Shown here: one piece after another, positions 6,543-13,192 of the stretch
Numbering within the stretch: position 1 is the stretch's first letter
How the letters are laid out: each line of letters begins with the position of its first letter
Origin: a virus
Virus record (IMG/VR): IMGVR_UViG_3300028571_000158
Location: 1-20,270 of that record
Reading direction: 5' to 3' (one strand)
Length of the DNA stretch: 20,270 nt
Translations under genes and position numbers: made by a program
The notes under the pieces: generated by a model
Seen by the model: only the letters and a program-made list of their open reading frames with translations
What the model was told of the DNA's origin: nothing
Database searches by the model: none

Positions 6543-6746
6543 TTACCTACGATTTATGAGCAGGTCATAAAGCGTGTCTAATTTAACCTCTATTTTTGCA
6601 ATCCTGCCCTCTAAATTGTGTTGGCCATTATTATCAGGTTTAAGCTCTGAGAGATAATGTTTGACTAACCACCGGACTGTGGCAACCAAAGAGCCTACAA
6701 TTGTGATTGTAGATACTGCCAAAGCCGCCCAGTCATTCATGCTCAT
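6543..6746 (-). CDS. small membrane protein with C-terminal coiled coil, 67 aa (lysis-associated)
   Basis: One hydrophobic segment (about 7-28, ALAVSTITIVGSLVATVRWL) is followed by a basic hinge, a polar stretch (KPDNNGQHN) and a heptad-like helix (LEGRIAKIEVKLDTLYDLL). This design is common in the second membrane protein of phage lysis cassettes (holin-like, antiholin or membrane-anchor protein). Its ATG shares a base with the stop of the preceding two-helix protein (TAATG). ATG at 6740 is an alternative start. Function is inferred from topology and position behind the endolysin. Confidence 0.65.
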   Translation of the reverse strand: MSMNDWAALAVSTITIVGSLVATVRWLVKHYLSELKPDNNGQHNLEGRIAKIEVKLDTLYDLLINRR

Positions 6747-6937
6747 TAGCTGTTAATACCAAAAGACTTGTCTTGAGGATCAAAGTAGCGTGCCAAAGGT
6801 GCAACCAAGGCACCAGCCAAGATTGATAACTCAGGTTTAACATCTGCAACCAAAGCCAAAACTGTGGTGACAGTGGCGGCGGCAATACTGCGTAGATATG
6901 ACTTAACAATTTCTTTTTGTTTTTTTGTCAGCTTCAT
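6746..6937 (-). CDS. putative holin, 63 aa
   Basis: A short protein with a basic N-terminus (KLTKKQKEIVKSYLR), two hydrophobic helices (about 17-33 and 36-50) joined by a short turn (DVKPELS), and a polar tail. Size, topology and position directly after the peptidase support a class II-like holin that would open the membrane for the endolysin. The ATG overlaps the endolysin stop (ATGA), and AGGA lies seven bases upstream. The helices are only moderately hydrophobic (Ala-rich), so another membrane role is possible. Confidence 0.65.
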   Translation of the reverse strand: MKLTKKQKEIVKSYLRSIAAATVTTVLALVADVKPELSILAGALVAPLARYFDPQDKSFGINS

Positions 6938-7407
6938 AATAATCCTAACTCTTTGATTTTTGTTTTGACCTGATTTTGATTTAAAGCAATCTCAAAGTGC
7001 ATATCATCTTTACGCCTTTTGTAATTGCCACCCCAAGCCAATCCATATTTAGTTATGAGTAAGGTAATTGTATTACGCTGAGCCTGATTAAAGGTATTTG
7101 ACTTGCCCAAAGGATGTTTAATTGCATTTAGATCAATTGCAGTCCCGGATGAATGATTGCTCAATACTTTGTCTGATGATCTAGTCATGCGGAAGGCATA
7201 ACCCCAGTCATCTAATTGGCCTTCATCTATTGGCTCAACCCATTCATGAAAGTCTTTAGCAAAATTGACAAGCAAAGGTGCAACCGCTTTTGCACATGCA
7301 AACTTAATTTTTGTGCCTGGCACAACAAAAGACTCTATACCTAGAGCTTTACGATCTCCACTGGCCGGCCATCCATTAGGGCTAGTGAGTTCTCTAATTA
7401 TTGCCAC
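6934..7407 (-). CDS. M15-type peptidase endolysin (D-Ala-D-Ala/L-Ala-D-Glu family), 157 aa
   Basis: A zinc peptidase of the M15/VanY type that cuts the peptide part of peptidoglycan. The zinc ligands are visible: H85 and D92 in SNHSSGTAIDLNA, and H137 in KDDMHFEI. The WGGNY segment before the last His is also characteristic. There is no separate cell-wall-binding domain and no signal peptide, so it is probably released through the holin encoded next. The start is a GTG; an in-frame stop two codons upstream excludes a longer protein. AGGGAA lies about 18 bases upstream, further than usual, so initiation may be weak or coupled. Substrate bond specificity cannot be told. Confidence 0.88.
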   Translation of the reverse strand: MAIIRELTSPNGWPASGDRKALGIESFVVPGTKIKFACAKAVAPLLVNFAKDFHEWVEPIDEGQLDDWGYAFRMTRSSDKVLSNHSSGTAIDLNAIKHPLGKSNTFNQAQRNTITLLITKYGLAWGGNYKRRKDDMHFEIALNQNQVKTKIKELGLL

Positions 7408-8631: not shown

Positions 8632-9882
8632 CTAGTAACTCAAACTATCTTCATCTAATAAACCATCTACATCTGAGTCTAGCAAAAAACCCACCGCAAA
8701 GGGTTGCGCACATGAGAATGTAACAGAAAAACTATTAGGTGTGATTGCATATTGAACACCGGCTATAACGCTGTCACTGACCACATTGCCGGCTGGCAAG
8801 GTCTGTGTCACCTGGATAGGATTAAAAATATCTAACTCTAAAGCGGCGGTTACTCTTGCCGGATCATCCTCACCATAGGCATCTACTGTAAGTGAGTTAA
8901 GTTGGATATTAACACCTTGCTCTTTGCGTGAGGCAATAATCATTTGAGCTTGGTTTAGGGCATCTGCCTCTGTCTGCATGATGCCGGATCTAACCCTAGA
9001 GTGTTGAAAATAATTATCAATACTGGCCGTATCGCTTGCAGTCTGATCGGTCAATCCAGTTGGAGTAACTGTTACTTTATTGATCATTTGAAAATCAGAG
9101 ATGTCAAACTCAACCGCTTGATATGTTATATTACCGGATCCATCAACATCTGAAAACTCTGTGAGAGTGCCACCTGATGCAGTGATGATGTCATCCCTTG
9201 ACATAAACTTAACAAAGCCTCTTTGATCAACATACAAAGCCCCGGCCTCTGTCTGCTCTAATTCTTGCAAGGATGAGAGCAAAGATCTTGATGCGCCGGT
9301 ATCTGCCTGGACTGTAGTAGTAGCAGTTGTAGATATGTCTCTCATGCCGCCTGGCCACTCTCCTTGATCTAACAGACTGGTTACTCTTTGAGCTGTGGTC
9401 TGCCCGGCTGATGCACCTGAGACTGTGGTCAAGGTAGTTAAGTTGAGAAGCTGAAAACCATCCACACAATTAAGCGTTACATAGGCTGGGTCAAAGCCGG
9501 TTGGGCTTTGATAATTCCACTCTTGGACATAGAAAGAGCCAAGGTTGTAATTAACATTTAAATAAGATGCGGTGAATCTTATTTTACGCATTGGTTTGAT
9601 TTTGCCATATAAAGATGAACCTGTATTGGCTGGGTTAAAGGTACCAGTCTGATCAATAAAAACTACCTTGGCAGATCCACCAATAAAAGAGTCTGATGAT
9701 CTATTAAAGGCTCTGCGGATAAAACACTGAGTTACAAAGTTTGTTATATCTACAACATCTGCGGCGGCTGTACCCAATACTGCACTGTCCAAAGGTGTTG
9801 CCGGGTCATCCAAGACTAAAGCCGGACTAAAGTTTGCACCCTGAGAAAAATCAATCTCAGCTTTAAATGTTGCGGCTGGCAT
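8632..9882 (-). CDS. minor tail protein, 416 aa
   Basis: A beta-rich protein immediately after the tape measure. It has the region RKIRFTASYLNVNYNLGSFY, then VQEWNYQSPTGFDPAYVTLN (roughly residues 95-140), then CVDGFQLLNL, typical of the tail-tip proteins of Gram-positive siphoviruses. The C-terminal part, with MINKVTVTPTG and QAQMIIASRKEQGVNIQLN, matches the portion that resembles baseplate hub proteins. It would form or cap the distal tail and hold the fibre. The ATG shares a base with the tape-measure stop (TAATG). Whether it is distal-tail or hub protein is not decidable here. Confidence 0.75.
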   Translation of the reverse strand: MPAATFKAEIDFSQGANFSPALVLDDPATPLDSAVLGTAAADVVDITNFVTQCFIRRAFNRSSDSFIGGSAKVVFIDQTGTFNPANTGSSLYGKIKPMRKIRFTASYLNVNYNLGSFYVQEWNYQSPTGFDPAYVTLNCVDGFQLLNLTTLTTVSGASAGQTTAQRVTSLLDQGEWPGGMRDISTTATTTVQADTGASRSLLSSLQELEQTEAGALYVDQRGFVKFMSRDDIITASGGTLTEFSDVDGSGNITYQAVEFDISDFQMINKVTVTPTGLTDQTASDTASIDNYFQHSRVRSGIMQTEADALNQAQMIIASRKEQGVNIQLNSLTVDAYGEDDPARVTAALELDIFNPIQVTQTLPAGNVVSDSVIAGVQYAITPNSFSVTFSCAQPFAVGFLLDSDVDGLLDEDSLSY

Positions 9883-11735
9883 TATCTACCAAGGTTTGTA
9901 AGCTGTGTGACTGCCCCAGTGCGGTTGAGATTGTATAAAACATCCTGGATAACAGATTGCAATTGACCCTCAGAGATGACAGATCCGGCCACATTGATTG
10001 TAACCCTCTGACCCATATCGCCCATACGATCTAAAGGAATGACTGCCTCAGCCCCGGCCTCACCAATTAAGGCTTGGGTTGGCCTAGTAACAATACCCCC
10101 ATCTGCCATTTTAACAGTTCGATTTACCTTATCCTGCAAAGCCAAAATTGTTTTTGTAGCCGCATCTAGTTGCGCAATATTTTGTGAAAAAGGCACATCC
10201 GGCACTTTAACAGTTTGATTTACCTTATCCTGCAAAGCCAAAATTGTTTTTGTAGCCGCATCTAGTTGCGCAATATTTTGTACAAAAGGTGTTGCCTCCT
10301 GAATTGGCACACCTGGCACTTTGACATTTTGCACATAACTCATCATCTTCTTTAATTCTTCATTGGCCTCAAGTAATTTTTGTATGTATAACTCCACGCC
10401 TACTGTAGTCATGCCCCATTTTTTGGCTAGTTCATCAATCTCTTGGGTAGTTATTTTGCCATCCTCAATAACCTTTAAAACATCTGCGTAGCGTTGCGCC
10501 TCATCTACTGCGGCTTTTGTACCCTCTGCAAGTTTTTGCAAAATCTTTACACGCAATTCATCCTCTGCGGATAGTTTGCGACTTAGCGCGGCCTGTAGAT
10601 TGATCCGGTCTAAGTCAAACATTGATTCTAACTCTGCCTTTTTCTTTGCTAAAGCGGCTTGAGCCTGTTGTTCTTTTGTTGTGGCTTTTTGTCTAGCTAA
10701 AATCTGTGCCTGTATTTTTGCAAGGATCTGATCCTGAGTAAGTTTTTTCTTACCAAACTTTTCTTGCAATTCAAGAGCATCTATTGTTAATTGAGACAAA
10801 CCATAATAGCCTTTTGCCTTTAAGACTTGTTCATCCCTTATTTTGATGCCTTGTTTTTCAAGTCTTTGTAAGGTGCCGGTCTCCCCTACTAAACCCTCAA
10901 CCGCAATTTTAAGTATATCTAGATAACCACCCATACCTTTATTAGCAAAAGATCCTGCACCGCCTACAAAGATGTCAGTGAACTGTGTCGCTACGCCTTC
11001 AAGTTTTTTACCAAAAACATCAAGATTATCTGATCCAGTCACGATCAAAGATGCGGCTGTCAAAAATCCTTGACCTAAAGTTTCAGTAGCTTCACCTGCA
11101 CTGATCTGAAAGGATTTTAATTGACCTTCAAAAGTTTGTGTTGATGCCTCTGCCGCCCCTGCATATTTATCAAGATTGATCAAAAGTTTTTCAAAGCCCA
11201 TTGCTTCGGCCTCTGCGGCTGTAAAGCCAAGACCTAAATTACCTATTGCTTTAAAATTACCTACTGCCGCTTTTGTAATTGCATCTAAAACCTGAGTTAA
11301 GTCTGCACCTGTACCGGCTGAAATATCTAAAGATTTTTGAAGGAGATATTGTGAACTGTCAAGATCACCGGTTTGGTTGATCAATTGCCTTAGAGCCGGG
11401 ACAAGCTCATCCTCAGTAACATTTGTTACTCTTTGTAAATTATCTATAAAATCTTTGACATTGGGCAAAAGACCCTCTGCACCAATAGTTTGTAAGGTTA
11501 GCCTTAATTGTTTATCTAACTTTTCTTGAGCCAAGGCCGCTTCAATAGAGTTTTTGCCAAGCTTGAGCAGACCAAAACCGGCGGCTATAGCACCGGCATA
11601 AAGACCGGCTTTTAAAGCCCGGCGACTTTTGGCTACTGTTCTATCAAAACCTTTTAATTCTTTTGTGGCGCGATCTAATCCCTTTTTATCAAACTTGGTT
11701 AAAAAATTGACTACTACATTCTGACTTAGTGCCAT
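9882..11735 (-). CDS. tape measure protein, 617 aa
   Basis: The longest gene of the window. It encodes a mostly helical protein that sets tail length and is ejected with DNA. The N-terminus FDKKGLDRATKELKGFDRTV and a hydrophobic helix (about 43-60) are typical. The centre is rich in Ala/Lys/Glu/Gln coiled coil, and the C-terminus has MADGGIVTRPTQALIGEAGA with EAVIPLDRM, the common tape-measure ending. The length suggests a tail of roughly 90 nm at the usual ratio of about 0.15 nm per residue. Residues about 485-545 hold a duplicated 32-residue unit (see repeat). Ribosome-binding site GAGG precedes the ATG by six bases. Confidence 0.9.
   Translation of the reverse strand: MALSQNVVVNFLTKFDKKGLDRATKELKGFDRTVAKSRRALKAGLYAGAIAAGFGLLKLGKNSIEAALAQEKLDKQLRLTLQTIGAEGLLPNVKDFIDNLQRVTNVTEDELVPALRQLINQTGDLDSSQYLLQKSLDISAGTGADLTQVLDAITKAAVGNFKAIGNLGLGFTAAEAEAMGFEKLLINLDKYAGAAEASTQTFEGQLKSFQISAGEATETLGQGFLTAASLIVTGSDNLDVFGKKLEGVATQFTDIFVGGAGSFANKGMGGYLDILKIAVEGLVGETGTLQRLEKQGIKIRDEQVLKAKGYYGLSQLTIDALELQEKFGKKKLTQDQILAKIQAQILARQKATTKEQQAQAALAKKKAELESMFDLDRINLQAALSRKLSAEDELRVKILQKLAEGTKAAVDEAQRYADVLKVIEDGKITTQEIDELAKKWGMTTVGVELYIQKLLEANEELKKMMSYVQNVKVPGVPIQEATPFVQNIAQLDAATKTILALQDKVNQTVKVPDVPFSQNIAQLDAATKTILALQDKVNRTVKMADGGIVTRPTQALIGEAGAEAVIPLDRMGDMGQRVTINVAGSVISEGQLQSVIQDVLYNLNRTGAVTQLTNLGR
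10110..10281 (-). repeat. tandem 96-bp duplication inside the tape measure gene
   Basis: Bases 10110-10185 and 10206-10281 match at 75 of 76 positions (the only difference is at 10120 versus 10216), with an offset of 96 bases, exactly 32 codons. The spacer between the copies has diverged. The repeated peptide contains QNIAQLDAATKTILALQDKVN, and the linkers read VKVPDVP and, before the first copy, VKVPGVP. The near identity at DNA level points to a recent in-frame duplication that lengthens the tape measure. Confidence 0.9.
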
Positions 11736-11737
11736 TT

Positions 11738-12358
11738 TTAACCTCTAAAGTTTTCGCCTAGATATTTTTTTAATACTCCATAAAGGTTAGCATGAACCTG
11801 TGAAGCCATCTCATAAGCGGCTCTATAAACAAGTCTAGGTTTTTCAGCTTTGCCTACCTTTGCAATAAACAAATTGCTTGCGTCTTTGTTGCGGCTGACT
11901 CTCCTAGTTTTACCTTTACTGCGTGCAGTGCCAAAGCCGGCTAACTCATAAATAATACCTGGGACAGATCTACTCTGTAGAGACAGGGCAGATACGCCAA
12001 ACTCTGCGCCTTTAATGCGTTGCACTTTAGTTTTGGCCTCTGTGATAAAAATGCCTTTTACTACTTCATCTCTTGACCACTGCCATCTTGACTCATTTGT
12101 TTTGCCATAAGTCCTACCCCTATGAGTTGTATCAGTAGCCCAACCCCAAGCCGGTGGATAGTAAGGCTTGGTCTCACGCCACCCAGGAAATACTTGATTA
12201 GGTACAAAACTTTGAGCTTTACGCTGTACTGGTCTGACCGCTTTTTTTAATTCTTGTCTAAACTTTTTGGCTAGTTTTGCATCCATCTCTTTTAACCGGG
12301 CGTTTAGTGCATCAAAGTTTTTGATATAGATAGCATCATTTACTTTGAACTCAACCAT
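11738..12358 (-). CDS. HK97-gp10-like head-tail joining / tail completion protein, 206 aa
   Basis: The N-terminal half has an amphipathic helix LNARLKEMDAKLAKKFRQEL and KKAVRPVQRKAQSFVP, the usual gp10-like pattern of a helix followed by a conserved Ala-x6-P. The C-terminal half has SVPGIIYELAGFGTARSKG and a basic end with YRAAYEMASQVHANLY. Such proteins complete the neck or tail. Unusually, it lies between the tail-assembly chaperone and the tape measure rather than before the major tail protein. Its ATG overlaps the stop of the frameshifted chaperone (TAATG). The whole protein is basic, and a Trp/Tyr-rich loop (YYPPAWGWATD) is inserted in the middle. Confidence 0.7.
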   Translation of the reverse strand: MVEFKVNDAIYIKNFDALNARLKEMDAKLAKKFRQELKKAVRPVQRKAQSFVPNQVFPGWRETKPYYPPAWGWATDTTHRGRTYGKTNESRWQWSRDEVVKGIFITEAKTKVQRIKGAEFGVSALSLQSRSVPGIIYELAGFGTARSKGKTRRVSRNKDASNLFIAKVGKAEKPRLVYRAAYEMASQVHANLYGVLKKYLGENFRG

Positions 12359-12770
12359 TACTTACGCCTCATTGTCTTAGATTGTTGCGCTCTCTCTTGC
12401 AAGATTGCTTTGATGGCAAGATAGATTGCCGGATCAACCTCTAAAAGATCTTTAGGGCTGATACCTGTAGCCACCGACATAGATGCAATCTCCCATATCT
12501 GTCCATGCCGGTCTAGCCATTTTTTGGTTCATACAACAAATCAACATCTACATATTGGTTGATGTAATCGTCACCAAACTCTTTGTCTGTTTTACCTGCC
12601 GCTTTTTCAAGAGCGTGGGCAAACCACCAAAGATCTGACTCAAGTTGTAACTCACCCAACCTCTTACGCCATCCTGTTTTAAACTCAGCTTCAAAACCGA
12701 CCTTTACAGATGGCGTAAGTTCATAAGTAACCTTTTTGCCGTCTTTCTTTGTTATTTCAATTTTGTGCAT
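12358..12770 (-). CDS. tail assembly chaperone, -1 frameshift product (GT-type), about 136 aa
   Basis: The frameshifted long form of the tail assembly chaperone. Ribosomes read residues 1-84 of the short protein, slip one base back at A AAA AAT (12525-12519), and continue with WLDRHGQIWEIASMS and on for 53 codons to a TAA at 12358-12360. The extension contains SPKDLLEVDPAIYLAIKAIL and QERAQQSKTM, a helical T-domain-like ending. The extension frame has no stop and fills exactly the gap between the short ORF and the next gene. The product is expected in minority amounts and recruits the tape measure during tail assembly. Confidence 0.85.
12473..12525 (-). promoter_or_regulatory. -1 programmed ribosomal frameshift signal
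   Basis: The heptamer A AAA AAT (12525-12519) lies in the correct register (X XXY YYZ). It is followed by a six-base spacer (GGCTAG, containing the zero-frame stop) and a possible stem ACCGGCAT/ATGTCGGT (12512-12505 with 12480-12473). The stem has eight pairs including one G-U and a 24-base loop. The heptamer and the open -1 frame are seen directly; the stem as a frameshift stimulator is inferred. Confidence 0.8.
12513..12770 (-). CDS. tail assembly chaperone, short form (G-type), 85 aa
   Basis: The major product of the chaperone gene. The start MHKIEITKKDGKKVTYELTP is beta-like, then FEAEFKTGWRKRLGELQ and SDLWWFAHALEKAAGKTD form the helical core seen in the lambda G-type proteins of actinophages. 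It ends EPKNG at a TAG that directly follows the slippery site. AAGGTGGGAC precedes the ATG, a strong Shine-Dalgarno sequence. Position between major tail protein and tape measure is that of all known chaperone genes of long-tailed phages. The short form is expected in excess over the fused form. Confidence 0.85.
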   Translation of the reverse strand: MHKIEITKKDGKKVTYELTPSVKVGFEAEFKTGWRKRLGELQLESDLWWFAHALEKAAGKTDKEFGDDYINQYVDVDLLYEPKNG

Positions 12771-12784
12771 GTCCCACCTTTTCG

Positions 12785-13192
12785 TTATGCGCTAGTTGAT
12801 TTACTTAAAGCTGTTACCGGAAGAGTCACGCTGGCTGTCATTGCTGAATCTGTTGATCCTGAAATTGGTGTCCACTGGGTAATCAAACAAGACATACTGT
12901 AACTTGGGTTCGTTGCGGAGACTGTACCGGTTACTGGTATTAACTTGATTGCAAGTTTAGTACCAATTGCATCCTCAAAAAGACTATTTACTGATGCGGC
13001 GGCAAAATCATTAAATACTTCCAGCGAAACTGAGCTGACCTCAATCCCACCAATCATATTCTGTACAGTGTCATTCATACTTGTTATAGTTACCGCTTCA
13101 ACTTCTCTATTCAAACTGACTGTAGAGACATGATCGCTGATAGTGGTAGTACCAACAATCACTGCTACTTTGTTGCCCATAAATATTGCCAT
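12785..13192 (-). CDS. major tail protein, 135 aa
   Basis: A short beta-rich protein predicted to form the tail tube. It has VSLNREVEAVTITSMNDTV and EVSSVSLEVFNDFAAASVNS, then SYSMSCLITQWTPISGSTDS near the C-terminus, in line with tail-tube proteins of siphoviruses that carry a single tube domain and no Ig-like addition. AAGGA lies eight bases before the ATG. It stands directly before the chaperone gene, which is the expected order. No membrane segment or signal; one Cys. An Ig-like decoration domain, often fused in related phages, is absent. Confidence 0.85.
   Translation of the reverse strand: MAIFMGNKVAVIVGTTTISDHVSTVSLNREVEAVTITSMNDTVQNMIGGIEVSSVSLEVFNDFAAASVNSLFEDAIGTKLAIKLIPVTGTVSATNPSYSMSCLITQWTPISGSTDSAMTASVTLPVTALSKSTSA

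Follow-up and report, generated by a model that had tools for sequence, protein, structure and literature searches.

The locus examined here, on the minus strand of a 20,270-nt viral sequence (IMG/VR record IMGVR_UViG_3300028571_000158; its full length is referred to as the window), raises the question of how a reading frame is expressed that continues in the -1 frame beyond the stop codon of one gene and ends at the start codon of the next. The genes are arranged in the order major tail protein, G, T, a gene weakly resembling that of HK97 gp10, and tape measure protein (Table 1), where G denotes the zero-frame gene and T its extension in the -1 frame. The best-supported answer is that -1 programmed ribosomal frameshifting, already put forward in a first-pass annotation of this DNA, extends the product of a tail assembly chaperone gene of the lambda G/GT type. 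This answer is based on the slippery heptamer, the selection that acts on T, and a conserved stem; the chaperone role is putative. We assign this reading a probability of about 95%.

Table 1. Features of the G/T locus and its neighbors in the window
Feature	Position	Strand	Evidence
Major tail protein gene, upstream neighbor	12785..13192	-	phrog_4574 major tail protein, E 1.9e-13
G, zero-frame ORF, 85 aa, putative tail assembly chaperone	12513..12770	-	ORF; pN/pS 0.052; next gene after that of the major tail protein
Slippery heptamer A_AAA_AAT, zero-frame register	12519..12525	-	identical in all 117 unique relatives with an intact G frame
Zero-frame stop TAG, 3 nt past the heptamer	12513..12515	-	seen in the window and relatives
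T, -1-frame extension, 53 codons plus TAA	12358..12519	-	open frame; pN/pS; homology to the phiPsal1 -1 frame
Hairpin 5' arm, starts 6 nt past the heptamer	12503..12512	-	covariation, folding, helix scan
Hairpin 3' arm	12473..12482	-	stem of 10 pairs; 98.3% of cells paired; compensatory change at 3 pairs
Weakly HK97-gp10-like gene that follows T and precedes the tape measure gene	11738..12358	-	PF04883, E 0.0034, below cut-off
Tape measure protein gene	9882..11735	-	phrog_10093 tape measure protein, E 5.3e-9

On the minus strand, the 3' end of G reads ...TAT GAA CCA AAA AAT GGC TAG. The heptamer A AAA AAT occupies 12525-12519 and, as had been claimed, is in register with the open reading frame 12770-12513; the TAG stop, previously placed within six bases of the heptamer, follows after three (12515-12513). 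The -1 frame is open for the predicted 53 codons, from TGG at 12519 to 12361, and closes with TAA (12360-12358), the last base of which is the A of the ATG at 12358 of the next gene. The window is AT-rich and its genes contain 42 in-register heptamers of the XXXYYYZ type, so that the heptamer alone is not diagnostic and comparative evidence is needed. Among the heptamers located no more than 60 nt from a stop in the genes of the window, just one other has a -1 frame that continues beyond the stop, and this frame is the next open reading frame, which has its own ATG. The heptamer in question, T_TTA_AAT, lies in register in ORF 6934-7407 (minus strand), 42 nt short of its stop codon, and would lead into ORF 6746-6937 (minus strand); it probably arose by chance. 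A Shine-Dalgarno-like stimulator in the 18 nt preceding the G heptamer was absent in 118 of 118 sequences.

The sequences for comparison were obtained in four scans of IMG/VR, performed with the G protein, one T alignment and two G alignments, which yielded 80 loci each with overlap and collapsed to 118 unique sequences, 117 of them with an intact G frame. The peptide patterns used in the scans cover none of the six A of the heptamer; the Trp of one T pattern touches the last base only. AAAAAAT at the same position together with the TAG stop was found in all 117 intact unique relatives, a count that does not represent independent events since the G of each relative shares approximately 80% identity or more with its query. 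One further chaperone gene (L092) carries an upstream single-base indel, probably an assembly error, that breaks the G frame; the heptamer is still present. The heptamer takes its first A from a codon that may be TCA, CCA or GCA, such that the amino acid varies and the third base never does. Lys83 is encoded by AAA in every sequence, while the other lysine codons of G are divided between 704 AAA and 486 AAG. G is conserved in its own frame across the 118 sequences (pN/pS 0.052). A relative in which the heptamer is destroyed and the -1 frame remains intact with a start of its own, the case that the first-pass annotation had named as speaking against a frameshift, was sought and occurs in none of the 117. 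In-register heptamers being as common in the AT-rich window as they are, the open -1 frame and the heptamer might be ascribed to chance, to a decayed gene or to a sequencing error. Such an origin is extremely improbable given an arrangement that is common to 117 intact unique relatives from many metagenomes and a pN/pS of about 0.05 in the -1 frame.

The selection on T was determined in the window and 117 relatives. Codons 1-43 display a pN/pS of 0.049 in the T frame versus 1.8 and 3.4 in the two alternative frames, and no sequence has a T-frame stop within these codons. Codons 1-13 alone, which begin WLDRHGQIWE..., give a value of 0.069. Purifying selection acts strongly on T, codons 1-13 included. 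T also weakly matches phrog_166 "tail protein" (E 0.0047). The conservation of the first codons bears on another explanation, according to which T is a separate short protein that is initiated internally at codon 14 without any frameshift. Codon 14 is ATG in the window, where GGGAG is located nine bases upstream, and mostly GTG in the relatives, and a Shine-Dalgarno-like core precedes the possible start in 31 of the 118 sequences. Arguing against initiation at this site is the conservation in the -1 frame of the 13 codons upstream of it; moreover, in 12 relatives with ATT as codon 14 the first 20 T codons lack ATG, GTG and TTG, and an internal start leaves the invariant heptamer unexplained. 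We regard it as very improbable. Ahead of codon 14, neither ATG nor GTG is found in any of the 118 sequences examined, and TTG is found in only 5. In 114 of the 118, no more than three open codons precede TGG in the -1 frame; the -1-frame stop upstream and the zero-frame TAG thus confine the shift in these sequences to about 13 nt, which comprise the heptamer and its immediate surroundings.

Additional support for the ribosomal frameshift comes from a hairpin downstream of the heptamer. The first-pass annotation had described a stem of eight pairs six bases downstream. The spacing proved to be right, with the stem starting at 12512, but the conserved stem consists of 10 pairs, formed by 12512-12503 with 12482-12473. 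Over 76 distinct 70-nt sequences it is 98.3% paired, and two-sided changes occur in three pairs (AU/GU/CG/UG; CG/UG/UA; CG/UA). None of 500 shuffles equaled the stem in paired percentage or covariation score, and sliding the partners against each other destroyed both. Covariation in related phages, recommended earlier as a check, is therefore present, with three compensatory pairs that outperform 500 of 500 shuffles. RNAalifold, unaided, predicts nine of the ten pairs, and when all helices that the region could form were compared, the stem was the longest and had the most compensatory pairs. The hairpin of the window itself folds better than shuffled sequences (z -2.3), and its spacing of 6 nt agrees with the approximately 5-9 nt expected for a stimulatory structure. 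Twelve relatives (L146, L178, L156, L220 and similar) have a C-U mismatch at one internal stem pair, which is linked to the ATT at T codon 14. An extra lower stem in the minimum-energy fold of the window was rejected, as it is not conserved, and a scan of all helices for a pseudoknot revealed weak candidates only, such as 280-284 with 321-325 (numbered from the first base of G).

More distant homologues provide a view of the site beyond the close relatives. In a phage collection, the sole match of T was Pontimonas phage phiPsal1 (MG835450.1), the genome of which came from the sequencing of a streamlined marine actinobacterium (PMC6106888); a search of the collection with G found nothing. Gene 016 of phiPsal1 ends TCA AAA AAA TAA, and the protein read in the -1 frame from A_AAA_AAA is homologous to T (hhalign probability 96, E 2.9e-9). 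The similarity between G and gene 016 is weaker (hhalign probability 39). phiPsal1 thus resembles the window in its homologous T frame, its gene order and an in-register heptamer at the G stop, but differs in that A_AAA_AAA directly precedes TAA, in its hairpin, and in the weak similarity of G. The phiPsal1 record annotates neither the frameshift nor T and calls the matching protein hypothetical. The unannotated T-like -1 frame occupies 11065-11229 of the record (2066-2230 of our locus L320) and is overlapped by the start of the annotated gene 017. A gene similar in size to the gp10-like gene of the window (11738-12358) is found at the corresponding place in phiPsal1. A scan with the phiPsal1 T, together with five loci found with the phiPsal1 G, resulted in a wider set of 62 unique loci. 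In 61 of the 61 loci with upstream DNA, an in-register heptamer is located at the zero-frame stop or no more than 12 nt away from it; it is C_CCA_AAA in 46 and A_AAA_AAA in 15. The downstream regions of 19 loci fold on average better than shuffled sequences (mean z -1.6), but not uniformly. Bacterial genome contigs scanned with T and with the capsid protein yielded no relative and hence no prophage or host.

The wider set also bears on slippage during transcription, in which the RNA polymerase would slip on the A6 run, giving transcripts that have gained one A and from which the fusion is translated in the usual way. Such slippage is documented for runs of A, mostly for those longer than 7 A (PMC3711429), and the run of six in the window is extended to A7 or A8 in some distant relatives. 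However, a long homopolymer run is not common to the family, as C_CCA_AAA, with just four A, is present at the equivalent place in 46 of 61 distant T homologues. Furthermore, the covarying hairpin six bases downstream is situated where a stimulator acting on the ribosome is expected. That the type of heptamer changes while its register and position are kept favors tandem tRNA slippage over slippage of the RNA polymerase, for which we see very little likelihood.

The heptamer of the window is expected to be a weak one in E. coli. Tetramers rank in E. coli slippage as A_AAG > U_UUY > C_CCY > A_AAA, the remainder having little or no activity, and A_AAA_AAC, despite its low efficiency, is very likely employed by insertion sequences (PMC4066793); a separate value for A_AAA_AAU was not found in the text consulted. 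The earlier remark that A/AAT slips are less common fits this literature, in which the nearest heptamer tested is the inefficient A_AAA_AAC. Two phage tail-chaperone genes that were tested displayed 6-7% frameshifting (PMC3711429), and a weak slippery site is compatible with the low ratio needed by such chaperone genes. A literature search for AAAAAAT at a phage tail chaperone found no report, which is weak evidence, subscription papers being mostly outside its coverage. An unlikely but conceivable reason for the fixation of A_AAA_AAU in the clade is that the tRNA-Asn or the ribosomes of the hosts, probably actinobacteria, slip on it differently. If this were true, the frameshift efficiency of the family would be tuned to the host tRNA, and the C_CCA_AAA and A_AAA_AAA sites would track a change of host.

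G did not match any Pfam or PHROG family. Its predicted fold (pLDDT 82) had no match in the PDB at E <= 0.001, and good matches were obtained solely to uncharacterized phage proteins. Because G resembles no characterized chaperone by sequence or fold, we infer the chaperone role from position and architecture. The gene order is kept in 109 of 118 relatives; the other nine miss one or more of the end genes, most likely because the fetched stretch was short. The architecture of a short G and a frameshifted GT from one start is present at the sequence level, and a mode of action like that of G/GT is, by analogy, well supported. As in lambda, a small open reading frame follows the major tail protein gene, an in-register heptamer is placed near its 3' end, the -1 extension is short, and the tape measure gene lies downstream. 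The heptamer of lambda G/GT is G_GGA_AAG; that of the window is A_AAA_AAT. The window further differs from lambda by the lack of recognizable sequence similarity, by its clear stimulatory hairpin, and by the additional gp10-like gene between T and the tape measure gene. In the haloarchaeal tailed virus HCTV-2, the corresponding pair of genes has its g-t frameshift at A_AAA_AAC (PMC5009743), which is almost the heptamer of the window, the last base being C rather than T; this virus is archaeal, and the comparison covers the heptamer and the gene pair. Rhodococcus phage Jflix2 (OQ938594.1) has a major tail protein distantly related to that of the window, and its chaperone is annotated as a frameshifted joined gene before the tape measure gene. 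Jflix2 differs in its longer G and T, is a high-GC actinophage, and has no match to the G or T of the window.

According to the proposed mechanism, most ribosomes would terminate at the TAG and produce G (85 aa). A minority, paused by the hairpin six bases ahead while tRNA-Lys occupies AAA and tRNA-Asn occupies AAT, would move back by one base to AAA/AAA and resume at TGG in the T frame. The predicted minor product is a G-T fusion of about 137 aa. In lambda, G and GT associate with the tape measure protein, and the binding partner of T is the major tail protein (PMC5009743). By analogy, G may bind the tape measure protein and T may recruit the major tail protein.

G and T of the window are a well-supported new and apparently unannotated example of a probable tail-chaperone frameshift. 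The principle is already known from many tailed phages; what is added to these cases is a viral protein family that is abundant in metagenomes and called hypothetical in its one named phage record. Without the frameshift, the T frame drops out of the annotation, as it did in phiPsal1. The homologous sites with their three heptamers constitute a natural series in which the slippery sequence changes while the proposed frameshift is kept.
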